From a virus: a stretch of 39,304 bases of DNA. The stretch covers positions 1-39,304 of IMG/VR virus record IMGVR_UViG_3300009119_000002. The stretch is one strand, 5' to 3'. The position numbers and the translations under genes are program-made. Of this stretch, positions 1,547-11,153 are shown in pieces; within the stretch, counting starts at the first letter, position 1; every line of letters begins with the position of its first letter. The notes beneath the pieces were generated by a model. The model ran no database searches. It was given only the letters and a program-made list of their open reading frames with translations, and had not been told where the DNA came from.

Positions 1547-1755
1547 AAACCAGAAAAATAAACCTGAAGCCAGGCGAAATCCTTGAAATTTGCGTAGGAG
1601 GCGCTCATCTCCCTGAGATTAGGATAGCGATTGACACGCTCAATCCGTCCGGTGAGCCTGTGATTATGATAAATCAAAACCCGTTTGGTATTGCCGTAAA
1701 GGCTGTTACTGACGCCGGATTCGATTATAATATCTTGTTGATGGAGGATTTATGA
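1543..1755 (+). CDS. Small hypothetical protein, paralogue of previous gene
   Basis: 70 residues, with the same N-terminal arrangement as its upstream neighbour (see 1346-1546), pointing to tandem duplication. The start overlaps the upstream stop as ATGA with AAGGGGAAG in front, so translation is coupled. Function unknown. Confidence 0.6.
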   Translation: MKTRKINLKPGEILEICVGGAHLPEIRIAIDTLNPSGEPVIMINQNPFGIAVKAVTDAGFDYNILLMEDL

Positions 1756-1937
1756 ACATTAACGAAATGTATGACAAAGACGGCAAATATAGCAGATTGC
1801 CCGACGAACAGGTGTTTATGCAGTTGATTCAAGATCGGCGGTATCAAAAGGCGAAGGATGATGCTATAAAAATAGCCAAGGAATTGGAAATTTACATGGA
1901 AACAAACGTCAATGAAAACAGAACAACAATTGTGTAA
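1752..1937 (+). CDS. Small hypothetical protein
   Basis: 61 residues, highly charged and probably helical (INEMYDKDGKYSRLPDEQ...). Overlaps the upstream stop by 4 bases (ATGA) with GGAGG just ahead, so it belongs to the P2 operon. Nothing recognised. Confidence 0.55.
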   Translation: MNINEMYDKDGKYSRLPDEQVFMQLIQDRRYQKAKDDAIKIAKELEIYMETNVNENRTTIV

Positions 1938-2175
1938 GGATAGTGAAGAAATTAATCGGCCGAACGAAGTCAACGAAATGATGGAAATGTCTAAAGAAAT
2001 AGACAGGTTGATTAAATCAGGTCAATGGAAAAGCTTGTGCGAACAGGCTCAGACATTAGCCGATTACGCCCAGATGTACGGATTGAAATGTGAACGGAAT
2101 AACAAACATTATCCGCAATTTGAAAAATATCTTGACAATTTGATAAAAAGAGAGGATACTATATCCACAGTTTGA
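1912..2175 (+). CDS. Small helical hypothetical protein whose 3' end overlaps promoter P3
   Basis: Up to 87 residues, helical and charged, Cys at two places. It overlaps the previous gene by 26 bases; there is no strong ribosome site at 1912, and starts at 1978 or 1984 are possible. The last 25 codons run straight through promoter P3 (2132-2160), so the same bases are coding and promoter. The corresponding sequence before P2 is non-coding, so the frame may simply be left open by chance there. Confidence 0.45.
   Translation: MKTEQQLCKDSEEINRPNEVNEMMEMSKEIDRLIKSGQWKSLCEQAQTLADYAQMYGLKCERNNKHYPQFEKYLDNLIKREDTISTV
2132..2160 (+). promoter_or_regulatory. Early promoter P3 (sigma70-like)
   Basis: TTGACA 2132-2137, 17 bp, GATACT 2155-2160. 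Third member of the duplicated promoter family (397, 1283). Drives the small gene at 2196. Confidence 0.75.
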
Positions 2176-2195
2176 ACAAAGATGGAGATAAGATC

Positions 2196-2342
2196 ATGAA
2201 ACTTATAACTGATACGAAAATCATAAAATTGGCTGATAAGTTGGCTGAAAAGTTTACAGCAGACGAGCTGATTGAAATGTTGAGCATCAACGGTGAAATA
2301 AAAGAAGCTATTAATTTGGCAATATCAATTAAGGCAGATTGA
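2196..2342 (+). CDS. 48-residue hypothetical protein
   Basis: A short, helical, lysine-rich protein (MKLITDTKIIKLADKL... ending SIKAD). Supported by promoter P3 and by the ribosome site GATGGAGATAAGATC directly before the ATG, the same leader that precedes the gene at 1346. The stop codon is followed one base later by the start of the exported protein gene at 2344. No function recognised. Confidence 0.6.
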   Translation: MKLITDTKIIKLADKLAEKFTADELIEMLSINGEIKEAINLAISIKAD

Positions 2343-2343
2343 A

Positions 2344-2682
2344 ATGAAAACTAAAACATTATTGGGCCTTAGCGCCGCAACGGTTTGGACAATGATGGCC
2401 ATGGTGGCTGTCGCTGCGTACAGTTCAAACGCTTCGGCCATGACAGCTGGCGATGCGCGCGATCTGAACCGCTTTCAGACGGAGATCGTCGGCGCTTACA
2501 CTCTGGGCGTCTACGAGTCGATTCAATGGGCTGGCACATGCAATGCTGCGCCGAGCTATGATAAAGTCTTGGGTTGGGTCGTCAACGATCTTAGAAGTGT
2601 TTCTGTGCCTGAATCGAATCAGGTGTTCGCTGGCTGGATTAAACATCTCATCTCTATGAAATGTGGGCATGATAATCAATAA
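2344..2682 (+). CDS. Exported protein with signal peptide, possibly Rap1a/Tai-like
   Basis: 112 residues. Residues 1-32 form a signal peptide: MKTK, a hydrophobic stretch, and a cleavage-type ASA site. The mature part is about 80 residues with two cysteines (in TCNA near residue 62 and KCGH near 108) that could form a disulphide, plus GAYTLGVYESI, which resembles the G-Y-x-x-G helix of Rap1a/Tai immunity proteins. A periplasmic phage protein of this kind could act in superinfection exclusion or protection of the host; that is inference. The 3' end contains the dispersed word (2661). Confidence 0.6.
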   Translation: MKTKTLLGLSAATVWTMMAMVAVAAYSSNASAMTAGDARDLNRFQTEIVGAYTLGVYESIQWAGTCNAAPSYDKVLGWVVNDLRSVSVPESNQVFAGWIKHLISMKCGHDNQ

Positions 2683-2687
2683 ATGTC

Positions 2688-2716
2688 TTGACATAGAAAC
2701 CGATATATGAAACAAT
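2688..2716 (+). promoter_or_regulatory. Putative promoter
   Basis: TTGACA 2688-2693 and, after 17 bp, AACAAT 2711-2716 (weak -10). It lies 17 bases after a dispersed-word site (2661-2670) and upstream of the gene at 2748, which has a strong ribosome site AGAGGTG. Confidence 0.5.
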
Positions 2717-2747
2717 AGATCGTACTTAAAAAAAAGAGGTGACGACA

Positions 2748-3128
2748 ATGAAAACGGTTAAAAATGGTTTAGATCGGACGCCTGAGCAGTTCCTGGCGCT
2801 TTGGGGTTTGCGTGGTGATGAGCTGCTCAGATTACCAGATGAAATGCACGGGGCCGCTATTGGCGGCACGATAGCCACGGCCAAAGCATGGGCTATCGAA
2901 TGGTTGGCTAACAACCCAAAAAACGTGCAAAATCATCCATATAACTACAACTGGATGCAGTTTGGCAGACTTGAATTTGTGTCTAATGTGCTGGATGAGC
3001 AGATGGACGAGGCTTTGAACTTCCCACAAGCAAGGGCTATGCCGATTGCCGCTGAAGCATTCACAGGGCCAGAATTGACGCAAGATGAGTTTAACCAACT
3101 GAATCACGAAATGAGGGATTTAAAATGA
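2748..3128 (+). CDS. Hypothetical protein
   Basis: 126 residues, soluble, rich in Trp and Asn in the middle (NNPKNVQNHPYNYNWMQFGR), acidic C-terminus. No domain recognised. Start at 2748 chosen for AGAGGTG 7 bases upstream; an in-frame start at 2739 lacks it. Heads a run of overlapping small genes and overlaps the next start as ATGA-type coupling (3125-3128). Confidence 0.65.
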   Translation: MKTVKNGLDRTPEQFLALWGLRGDELLRLPDEMHGAAIGGTIATAKAWAIEWLANNPKNVQNHPYNYNWMQFGRLEFVSNVLDEQMDEALNFPQARAMPIAAEAFTGPELTQDEFNQLNHEMRDLK

Positions 3129-8641: not shown

Positions 8642-8898
8642 ACAAAGATGACGACAAAGTTAAAATTGTTAATTTCAAACGGCTTGATAACAAGAGGGAT
8701 GCTGATATTCAGCAGATGATCGATGAAATTCAAGCGGAAAATGATAACGGAAACTTAGAAGAATTATTCGTTGTCATGAAACGCCGAGATGGAGATTGTT
8801 TTTTTTCAAGAATCTCGGAACTCGTGAGCCGTTACCGATCAATAGGTATGATGGAAGATTTGAAATTGATGATCTTGAACGGGCCCGCCCCAAAATGA
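8638..8898 (+). CDS. Hypothetical protein before TerL
   Basis: 86 residues, charged and probably helical (RDADIQQMIDEIQAENDNGNLEELF). GAGGAGGAAG before the start is a strong ribosome site. Its stop overlaps the TerL start (ATGA at 8895-8898). No family recognised. Confidence 0.6.
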   Translation: MNKDDDKVKIVNFKRLDNKRDADIQQMIDEIQAENDNGNLEELFVVMKRRDGDCFFSRISELVSRYRSIGMMEDLKLMILNGPAPK

Positions 8899-11153
8899 GT
8901 TTCGAATTAACAGAAAAGCAAACCGAAGCTATGAAAACGTTGGCTAGTAATGCGACGTATCTTATGTTGTTCGGAGGTAGTCGTTGCGTTGCCGCCGATA
9001 CAATCATAGACGGTCAAACTAAAACAATAAAACAGTTGGCCTTAGAAGGTAAACCCGTTCGGGTGCTGACAAGTAGGGGTGAACAGTGGGCGGAAGTACC
9101 TTTCCTAAAAGGTACTTCTCGTATGACGACTTTCGAATTGGAATCTGGCAAATCTGTGACCGTTACCGATGATCACAGATTTTGGGATGGTTTCCAGTGG
9201 ATAAAGGCTAAAGATTGTTTGGTTGGTTCTTCTTTGGCCGTCCGGTTATGCGAGAAAAACCCTCTTCAGTCCAATCAGGAATTTTTCCTTTCAAGGTTTC
9301 GTGAAGATGTTCGGCGTTTGAAGAAAAGACTCTCAAATTGTCGGGATGGTTATTCTTTATGTCACCGTCAATATGATCAACAACCTCACCAGGGAGTAGG
9401 CAGCGACCCAATTTATCGTGCATTACAATTCGATGAACCGGGGCATATCCCGCCCGATCAATACCGACAATTCCGCGCTTTGAAATCGCTCGTATCAAAT
9501 ACCCATGTGGGCTATCTTTCAAAACTCTTTGAAGGATGTAACCGCTTCTGTCACAAGTTGTTCCGTTTCGCCAACAAGGGTGATTTTCCATCGACATGTC
9601 CTCTTTCACTATTTCGTAGCCACGAACCCTTGCAAATTTGCGAACAGTTTCGGGGTTTACGTTTAGTTCGTCGGCTATTTGACCAGCTGTCAATCCTTCA
9701 ACAATTCGTTGCTGAACAAGCTGATATCTGTGTTTTCCGATTCTTCCGGTGCGTTGGTCTTTCATGGGATAGGCCTCTAAAGTCAGGTTATTGTTTGGAA
9801 AGGGTTGTGAAAATATCTTCAACCGCCGAACAAGAATACTACACACTCCATGTGCCGTCAAGCGAACAATATTTCGCCAATGGAATTCTTCATCACAATT
9901 CTGGCAAAACTTTTCTGCATGTTCGGAACATAGTTTTTAGGGCGTTGAAAGCTCCTGGGTCACGTCATTGTATTTTACGTTTCAGGTTTAACCATCTTGT
10001 TAGTTCGATAATTGAGGGCACGTTTCCGCGGGTGATGGAAATAGCATTCCCTGGCGTCGAGTACAAAATGAATCGCTCTGCATGGTACGTTCGGTTTGAA
10101 AATGGAAGTGAAATTTGGTTCGGCGGCCTGGATGATAAAGCGCGCACCGAAAAGATTTTGGGTAACGAGTATGCCACAATCTATTTGAATGAATGCAGCC
10201 AGATTTCTTGGGAATCGGTAGGCATTGTGTTCACCCGTCTGGCCCAATTGATCGATCAACAGATTCAAGGCGCGCCGAATAAGACGCTTAAGACGCGCCT
10301 CTATTTCGATTGTAACCCGCCTTCAAAGCTACACTGGTCTTACAGCTTGTTTCACAAAAAAATCGATCATGAAACGAAAGAACCATTGAAATTTCCTGCC
10401 GATTATGCTAGCGTCCAGATGAACCCACAGGATAATGAGAAAAATCTTAGTCCTGAATACATTCAAACGCTTAAGAACCTGCCTGCCCGACTTCAGAAAC
10501 GATTTTTAACAGGAGAATATACAGATGCAAATCCTAACGCTTTGTTTGACGATATTAATTTTGATTGCTGGCGTGTTACTGATGGGCTTAGTGTTGATCT
10601 TATCCGTGTTGTTGTTGCTGTCGACCCTTCCGGGGCTTCTGATGGTGATGAAAACGCGGGTAATGACGCCATTGGTATCGTTGTGGTGGGTCTTGGTTCG
10701 GACGGTAACGCCTATCTGCTTGAAGATTGTACGACAGTTGGAGGCCCGGCTATCTGGGGAAGCGTGGTCGCGCAGGCTTATGACCGTCAAGAAGCTGATA
10801 TCGTGGTTGCGGAAGTCAACTATGGCGGGGGTATGGTTCAAAGTGTCGTCCGTGCTGCTCGGCCCAATACTCCCTTCGCCCCGGTTAGGGCGTCGCGTGG
10901 AAAACATATCAGAGCTGACCCTGTCTCGATATTGTACTCGCAAGGCAAGGTGAGGCACGTTGGGAATTTTCCAGAGCTTGAGGAAGAGCTTTGTGGATTT
11001 TCGGCGACTGGATACCTGGGTGACAAGTCGCCGAACCGTGCCGATGCCTTGGTATGGGCAATCACGTATTTGTTCCCCACGATTACGAAAAAGCGGGATA
11101 ATAAGATCGTGGCAGAACCGCCGAAAACAATTAATCACTTTGGAAGACGCTGA
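8895..11153 (+). CDS. Terminase large subunit interrupted by an intein
   Basis: 752 codons; removing the intein (8985-9899) leaves a 447-residue terminase, close to P22 gp2 (499). After splicing the Walker A motif reads GGSRSGKT (residues 27-34), the intein sitting between Arg30 and Ser31. Other motifs in the C-extein: IYLNECSQI (Walker B with catalytic Glu), YFDCNPPSKLHW (motif III/coupling), then nuclease acidic residues in VVAVDPSGASDGDE, VVAEVNYGGG and SPNRADALVWA. It packages DNA into the prohead and cuts concatemers. Start at 8895 is coupled to the upstream stop; an in-frame TTG at 8796 is not used because its extra 33 residues lie in the preceding gene. Stop overlaps portal start. Confidence 0.93.
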   Translation: MSFELTEKQTEAMKTLASNATYLMLFGGSRCVAADTIIDGQTKTIKQLALEGKPVRVLTSRGEQWAEVPFLKGTSRMTTFELESGKSVTVTDDHRFWDGFQWIKAKDCLVGSSLAVRLCEKNPLQSNQEFFLSRFREDVRRLKKRLSNCRDGYSLCHRQYDQQPHQGVGSDPIYRALQFDEPGHIPPDQYRQFRALKSLVSNTHVGYLSKLFEGCNRFCHKLFRFANKGDFPSTCPLSLFRSHEPLQICEQFRGLRLVRRLFDQLSILQQFVAEQADICVFRFFRCVGLSWDRPLKSGYCLERVVKISSTAEQEYYTLHVPSSEQYFANGILHHNSGKTFLHVRNIVFRALKAPGSRHCILRFRFNHLVSSIIEGTFPRVMEIAFPGVEYKMNRSAWYVRFENGSEIWFGGLDDKARTEKILGNEYATIYLNECSQISWESVGIVFTRLAQLIDQQIQGAPNKTLKTRLYFDCNPPSKLHWSYSLFHKKIDHETKEPLKFPADYASVQMNPQDNEKNLSPEYIQTLKNLPARLQKRFLTGEYTDANPNALFDDINFDCWRVTDGLSVDLIRVVVAVDPSGASDGDENAGNDAIGIVVVGLGSDGNAYLLEDCTTVGGPAIWGSVVAQAYDRQEADIVVAEVNYGGGMVQSVVRAARPNTPFAPVRASRGKHIRADPVSILYSQGKVRHVGNFPELEEELCGFSATGYLGDKSPNRADALVWAITYLFPTITKKRDNKIVAEPPKTINHFGRR
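8985..9899 (+). mobile_element. Intein in the TerL Walker A motif
   Basis: 305 residues. Block A begins CVAADTIIDG with Cys1; block B is VTVTDDHRFW with the T-x-x-H at residues 61-64; the C-terminal blocks are EYYTLHVPSSEQYFANG and ILHHN, ending His-Asn before Ser +1. This is a full class 1 Hint domain, about 75 residues in front and 40 behind. The 185-residue linker between them has no LAGLIDADG motif in this frame; it is rich in Cys, Arg and Phe because it is the opposite strand of the HNH gene (9208-9765). The insertion site inside a P-loop is typical of inteins, which favour conserved active sites. Splicing must occur for packaging. Confidence 0.92.
9208..9765 (-). CDS. HNH homing endonuclease encoded antisense inside the intein
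   Basis: 185 residues on the minus strand. Residues about 10-50 hold a helix-turn-helix (LTAGQIADELNVNPETVRKF), then an HNH_3-type nuclease: VHRIVMHDKLGR, VVDHIDGDIKNNHPDNLRVF, SSNAEHLH, with His, His and Asn at the catalytic places. Start at 9765 is supported by AGAGG eight bases upstream on this strand; the same frame is open to 9861 without a ribosome site. Start and stop coincide closely with the linker of the intein (intein residues 75-261). It would cut intein-free terminase genes and so spread the intein. Its codons are shifted by one against the intein frame, and neither frame is broken. Confidence 0.9.
   Translation of the reverse strand: MKDQRTGRIGKHRYQLVQQRIVEGLTAGQIADELNVNPETVRKFARVRGYEIVKEDMSMENHPCWRNGTTCDRSGYILQRVLKDSPHGYLIRAISKRGIVGIDRAGYAPVHRIVMHDKLGRCLLPGEVVDHIDGDIKNNHPDNLRVFSSNAEHLHETLKGKIPDWTEEGFSRITGRPKKNQPNNL

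Follow-up and report, generated by a model that had tools for sequence, protein, structure and literature searches.

A phage terminase intein with an HNH endonuclease gene on the opposite strand, a putative mobile element

The split inteins of fractured genes, which Dassa reportedly described in 2009, are accompanied by free-standing endonuclease genes that lie between the gene halves. I-HmuI, an HNH homing endonuclease, is located in an intron and has a DNA-binding layout different from that of the protein described below.

The inteins known from the large terminase subunit (TerL) of mycobacteriophages have conventional endonuclease domains and occupy neighbouring sites in the P-loop (Kelley 2016, PMC5050341). 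The closest published case that we found is the ShiLan domain, which is encoded on the same strand as its host gene and involves no intein. It is a stop-free insertion in phage methylases that hides an out-of-frame HNH gene; this HNH gene has no detectable ribosome binding site, there is no intein splicing domain, and the insertion is thought to remain in the protein (Arsenault 2025, PMC11855218). An apparently ShiLan-like arrangement occurs in Mycobacterium phage Constella (L392), where an HNH gene (2201-2818) is nested on the same strand within a methyltransferase gene (1701-3128).

No antisense endonuclease gene in an intein was found in a literature search whose coverage did not include Gorbalenya 1998 ("Non-canonical inteins") or a preprint from 2025 that deals with inteins of "non-canonical architecture" in actinobacteriophages. 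The preprint may describe a similar idea. It probably does not cover the family discussed here, since the clear full-length relatives that we identified in 50,697 phage records did not include any actinobacteriophage.

Here we describe such an arrangement in a viral sequence of 39,304 nucleotides (IMG/VR record IMGVR_UViG_3300009119_000002), referred to in its full length as the window. We consider it highly probable that its terL gene carries a mobile intein and that a separate, antisense gene encodes the homing endonuclease of this intein. The anatomy of the locus, the constraint on two reading frames, the empty sites, the joint mobility and the family-wide enrichment of promoters and Shine-Dalgarno sequences are documented by sequence comparison alone; splicing, DNA cleavage, antisense transcription and homing are inferred, without any experiment.

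Anatomy of the terminase intein

The TerL reading frame on the plus strand is open from 8796 to 11153, with an ATG at 8895, and forms one uninterrupted ORF. An intein of 305 residues (nt 8985-9899) extends from C31 to N335 of the TerL precursor (P0002) and is followed by a +1 serine. It is inserted inside the Walker A motif, GGSR/C...HN/SGKT, where the slashes mark the two junctions. The 30-residue N-extein (8895-8984) ends in GGSR, and the C-extein (9900-11153) starts with S336 of the Walker A SGKT and contains the ATPase and nuclease domains. The exteins match the Pfam families Terminase_3, 6N and 6C, and in the intein-free relatives L002 and L004 the N-extein is joined to the C-extein.

The N-terminal splicing half (residues 1-90, 8985-9254) contains C1 and the TxxH motif with H64, and the C-terminal half (residues 245-305, 9717-9899) ends in HHN. 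Pfam Intein_splicing matches the insert with E=7e-8 and 32.8 bits, slightly under the curated cutoff of 35.8, and the TIGR01445 match, which like the former concerns the N-terminal half, is also below cutoff. The residues expected of a class 1 intein are present in the window, namely C1, T61-x-x-H64, H304 N305 and the +1 serine. In a comparison of 48 sequences C1, H64, Y296 and N305 were invariant and H304 nearly so.

An AlphaFold2 (AF2) model of the intein has pLDDT values above 90 in the two halves and below 50 in most of residues 91-220. The halves match the DnaB and RecA mini-inteins of the PDB, both in a Foldseek search with the model and by sequence (HMM), so that the requirement for a Hint fold is met by prediction. 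Rows from isolated-phage records were left out of the structure predictions. The insert thus meets the definition of a class-1-type intein as far as its sequence and predicted fold can tell, and protein splicing activity is inferred. A split intein or fractured gene is ruled out in the window by the single open frame from 8895 to 11153.

Between the halves, the linker (residues 91-244, 9255-9716) is open in the sense frame. No endonuclease domain was detected in the intein's own frame; the linker gave no domain match, and most of it is predicted to be disordered. The original prediction, made from the letters of the window without database searches, had proposed both the splicing blocks at the two ends of the insert and a linker devoid of an in-frame endonuclease. 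Both proposals are borne out, the former by the profile matches, the nearly invariant splicing residues and the empty sites described below.

The antisense HNH gene and its family

The minus strand at 9208-9765 encodes a protein of 185 amino acids (plus stop) with a helix-turn-helix (HTH) at its N-terminus and an HNH_3 domain (E=4.8e-10, above the curated cutoff) at its C-terminus. Its best PHROG is phrog_10730, an HNH endonuclease (E=8e-20). The AF2 model has a mean pLDDT of 90; it shows the HTH as three helices, and its core is bba-Me-like. I-HmuI (PDB 1u3e) ranked first in a Foldseek search with this model, with a weak E of 0.07, and was also among the three sequence matches of the protein. 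H111, H131, N139, N143 and H153 of the HNH motif are invariant in 58-60 sequences. The protein therefore meets the expectation for an HNH homing endonuclease in motif and catalytic-residue conservation; cleavage of empty alleles is inferred, and its DNA target has not been shown.

The gene occupies the gap between the splicing halves, starting about 45 codons before the C-terminal end of the intein and stopping at about intein residue 75. Position 1 of the HNH codons lies opposite position 1 of the intein codons, so that the HNH wobble base is the second position of an intein codon. Neither frame is interrupted across the overlap. The ATG of the HNH gene, at 9765, is preceded at a distance of 8 nt by a Shine-Dalgarno sequence, AGAGG (9774-9778, minus strand). 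The original prediction was correct in the position of this gene and in its ribosome binding site. Further upstream is a weak candidate for a sigma-70-like promoter, TTGACG-17-TATTCT (9833-9861, minus strand), which matches 9 of 12 consensus bases. In a promoter scan of this window alone the candidate at 9861-9833 was not above chance, and its support comes from enrichment across the family.

Using the HNH protein alone as the query, and scoring each locus afterwards with profiles of the intein N- and C-terminal halves, we found 318 full loci, defined as those in which the two halves of the intein are encoded by a single opposite-strand ORF that extends across the HNH gene. The codon phase was identical in 318/318, and the uninterrupted reading of both frames that had been claimed for the window is thus the layout of every one of these loci. 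Some contigs recur among them, and removal of duplicates left 243 distinct inteins. These have C1 in 235/243, a terminal Asn in 243/243, a penultimate His in 233/243 and a +1 S, T or C in 243/243, although the count for the terminal Asn is affected by our placing the intein end at an Asn followed by S/T/C where present. The intein alignment contained no conserved stretch that could be used as a search query.

Expression signals are enriched across the family. A Shine-Dalgarno match of at least 4 nt precedes 64% of the HNH starts, which were fixed beforehand without Shine-Dalgarno information, versus 20% of other ATGs. Within the 160 nt before the HNH start, 34% of the loci have sigma-70-like promoters, versus 5-6% of control windows. 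Synonymous randomisation of the intein codons, in a slightly different region, gave an expectation of 32.7 such sites, whereas 70 were counted (z 8.3, a value that overstates the significance because of the relatedness of the loci). Some of these promoter-like sites match 11-12 of 12 consensus bases and lie about 26-31 nt before the HNH start.

The HNH genes of the family are always within an intein at a P-loop, in most cases before [ST]GK[ST] and in a minority between K and T. The identifiable host genes are mostly terminases; one (L087) is an SNF2 helicase. Isolates with the element include Pseudoalteromonas phage PHS3, seven Pectobacterium phages and Dickeya phage Setonix, and the layout was read directly in PHS3, Ymer and Sabo. 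Prophage copies are present in Enterobacter cloacae DSM 26481, an Acinetobacter strain and E. coli MEI003. A plasmid search gave only generic HNHs.

Exceptions among the relatives are few. L074 has one stop and L089 a frameshift, either of which could be real or a sequencing error, and L165, L198, L213 and L374 have open frames with diverged C-blocks. Stops also occur in L182, at a contig edge: in L182:1-800 the frame of the intein ends a short way past the N-domain, the antisense HNH follows and the contig ends within it, possibly representing a decayed or split intein. L190 (330-1031) encodes a free-standing HTH-HNH protein with no intein nearby. This HNH was not found in same-strand (sense) orientation in any of the relatives. 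In an Erysipelotrichaceae MAG (L130:2301-6543) an intein N-domain match and a different, weakly similar HNH share one ORF and frame, a candidate for a conventional in-frame HNH intein. The minus-strand ORF at L229:1335-3839 has a C-extein part of 835 residues; a LAGLIDADG_3 domain within it may indicate that this gene has a second intein.

The antisense arrangement accounts for several misannotated terL/HNH loci. In E. coli MEI003 (L390, NZ_CP071263.1 149657-154461) the annotation has an HNH gene and a TerL pseudogene "missing N-terminus", while the TerL-intein frame is actually open for 802 codons from stop to stop; its C-extein contains a tandem duplication, nearly perfect and about 29 residues long, which is either real or due to misassembly. 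In PHS3 (L012) the annotated "terminase large subunit" is shorter than the intein-bearing terL and stands beside an "HNH endonuclease"; in Pectobacterium phages (L013, L014) the intein-bearing terL is a "hypothetical protein".

Constraint on the two reading frames

When synonymous HNH codons of 67 HNH genes were redrawn from host usage, 399 stops were expected in the intein frame; none is observed. This count is conditional, as loci were chosen for an open frame, although only a few relatives failed the filter. As controls, the same antisense frame was open in 0/43 free-standing HNH_3 genes, which had 4.3 stops per 100 codons, and in 0.2% of 180-codon terminase windows. A chance antisense ORF is excluded by the synonymous randomisation, by the single phase in 318/318 loci and by these two controls.

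In ten independent related pairs we counted mismatches at positions 1/2/3 of the intein codons. The N-domain (0.102/0.064/0.323), the C-domain (0.098/0.060/0.222) and the extein (0.205/0.152/0.439) all peak at the third position, whereas the overlap (0.102/0.264/0.093) peaks at the second, which is the wobble base of the HNH codons. In the linker the constraint is therefore on the HNH protein, and nothing more than staying open is required of the intein frame. The codon-position test excludes the sense linker as the constrained protein.

Long HNH ORFs in 86/243 inteins extend through the intein N-domain, pairing a C-terminal extension of HNH with that domain. N-domain mismatches in this long class were 0.111/0.111/0.171 (35 pairs) versus 0.113/0.070/0.323 (22 pairs) in the short class. 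Both frames appear constrained in the long class, the same bases apparently encoding selected parts of two proteins. According to the original prediction the HNH gene survived in the intein because the sense frame stayed open. The frame is indeed open, but mere survival understates the case, given the strong avoidance of stops and the selection on both proteins in a large subgroup.

Mobility, alternative explanations and comparison with known systems

Intein-free TerL genes, whose comparison with intein-bearing ones had been suggested as a check, are found in L001-L004. The insert is absent from these relatives and the host gene is intact: residue 30 is joined directly to residue 336, and at the nucleotide level GGSR runs directly into SGKT. 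Similarly, E. coli ET729 has AGFG uninterruptedly followed by SGKT at the site where MEI003 carries the element. Among 385 pairs with HNH identity above 60%, 168 have hosts that are less than 45% identical. L036 and L039 are 84% identical in HNH and 89% in the intein and only 30% in the terminase; conversely, L313 and L220 have terminases that are 92% identical and HNHs that are 37% identical. HNH and intein thus travel as a unit, and replacement likewise affects both at once. On such comparisons, the locus meets the description of a sporadic, horizontally mobile element sitting in its own target site.

In a phylogenetic tree the antisense HNHs were separated from the free-standing ones, except for L190 and L015. 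With a modest support of 0.68 and two free-standing sequences on the antisense side, the tree is consistent with one origin of the antisense HNHs. The free-standing L190 protein is a candidate for their source or for an escapee. An HNH gene invading the intein backwards, as originally proposed, remains a supported reading, but not as a one-off event in this phage; the state is old and widespread with only one codon phase, and the reverse insertion is thus ancestral.

We propose that the HNH gene sits where an in-frame endonuclease domain would normally lie between the splicing halves. TerL would be translated as one 752-residue precursor, in which residues 1-90 and about 245-305 of the intein would form the Hint fold, excise the intein, disordered linker included, and restore GGSRSGKT. 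The promoter of an antisense transcript would lie within or close to the DNA encoding the intein C-half, and the HTH-HNH_3 protein would be translated from its own Shine-Dalgarno sequence and ATG on this transcript. The nuclease would cut or nick intein-free P-loop alleles, and repair would copy intein and HNH gene together. Selection for HNH activity and for splicing of an essential protein would keep both frames open, with the linker only avoiding stops.

The endonuclease could instead have lost its homing role and be retained to attack phages that co-infect or superinfect the cell and whose terminases lack the intein; with a promoter of its own it could be expressed from a prophage. Copies in prophages and the separate antisense promoter signals would fit such a use, and intron endonucleases in this role are generally known. 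We think this unlikely as a replacement for homing, because homing predicts just such a transfer of intein and HNH together between divergent hosts as is seen here; interference would come on top of homing and not in place of it.

It is less likely still that HNH is a packaging cofactor resembling HK97 gp74, placed within the terL intein to keep packaging genes together without homing. HNH proteins adjoining terminases are known to aid packaging (PMC11855218) and most host genes here are terminases. Across divergent hosts, however, HNH is co-inherited with the intein and not with the terminase, it is always within an intein at a P-loop, one copy is in an SNF2 helicase, and related terminases, such as those of E. 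coli ET729 and L001-L004, lack it.

We give little credence to regulation of terL by antisense transcription with the ORF being secondary; there are antisense promoter-like sites within terL, but neither the purifying selection on the HNH amino-acid sequence nor its invariant motif residues would be explained. That the antisense ORF is a by-product of a functional sense linker, with the HNH similarity a fossil or chance, can practically be dismissed: codon bias can yield long antisense ORFs (one other antisense frame was open in 10% of terminase windows), but the overlap's substitutions are concentrated on the HNH wobble base, the HNH motif residues are invariant and the linker is predicted to be disordered.

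The arrangement observed in the window is confirmed to be real. The interpretation of it as an intein paired with an antisense endonuclease is supported, with the homing function inferred. Three observations that would have refuted it, namely a sense-oriented HNH in relatives, unconserved splicing blocks and a domain family of the linker's own, were looked for and none was made. Beyond this locus, we judge it probable, with somewhat less assurance than for the window itself, that the family is a widespread, undescribed class of P-loop inteins in phage genes, having an antisense homing endonuclease with its own promoter and ribosome binding site in one phase since a single ancestral reverse insertion, and dually selected bases in 86 of the 243 members.

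Such a class would break the rule that a single polypeptide comprises both intein and endonuclease, and it would allow direct tests of how the two modules arose and became separated. It would provide a long-lived, hundreds-strong set of antisense overlapping genes in which codon positions reveal which protein is constrained where. Expression of the endonuclease, from its own antisense promoter, would be uncoupled from that of a late structural gene.

The inteins with in-frame endonucleases, including those of mycobacteriophage TerL, share with this one the splicing residues, the Hint fold, terminase P-loop sites and an endonuclease between the halves. Here, by contrast, the endonuclease is outside the intein polypeptide, antisense, and has its own start and ribosome site, and the insertion is between R and S of Walker A (in a minority of the family between K and T) and not only at the published TerL1 sites (PMC5050341). 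In split inteins and fractured genes, intein and endonuclease are likewise separate proteins encoded together, but the present intein is unsplit and the endonuclease gene overlaps it on the opposite strand. The bba-Me HNH core is shared with the intron-encoded I-HmuI, as judged from the weak Foldseek match, whereas the HNH described here follows an HTH at the N-terminus. Like the present element, the ShiLan domain is mobile and is inserted without stops into a phage gene, concealing an HNH in a different frame. The element does not qualify as ShiLan-type, however, having a complete intein, an HNH gene on the opposite strand, and Shine-Dalgarno and promoter signals.
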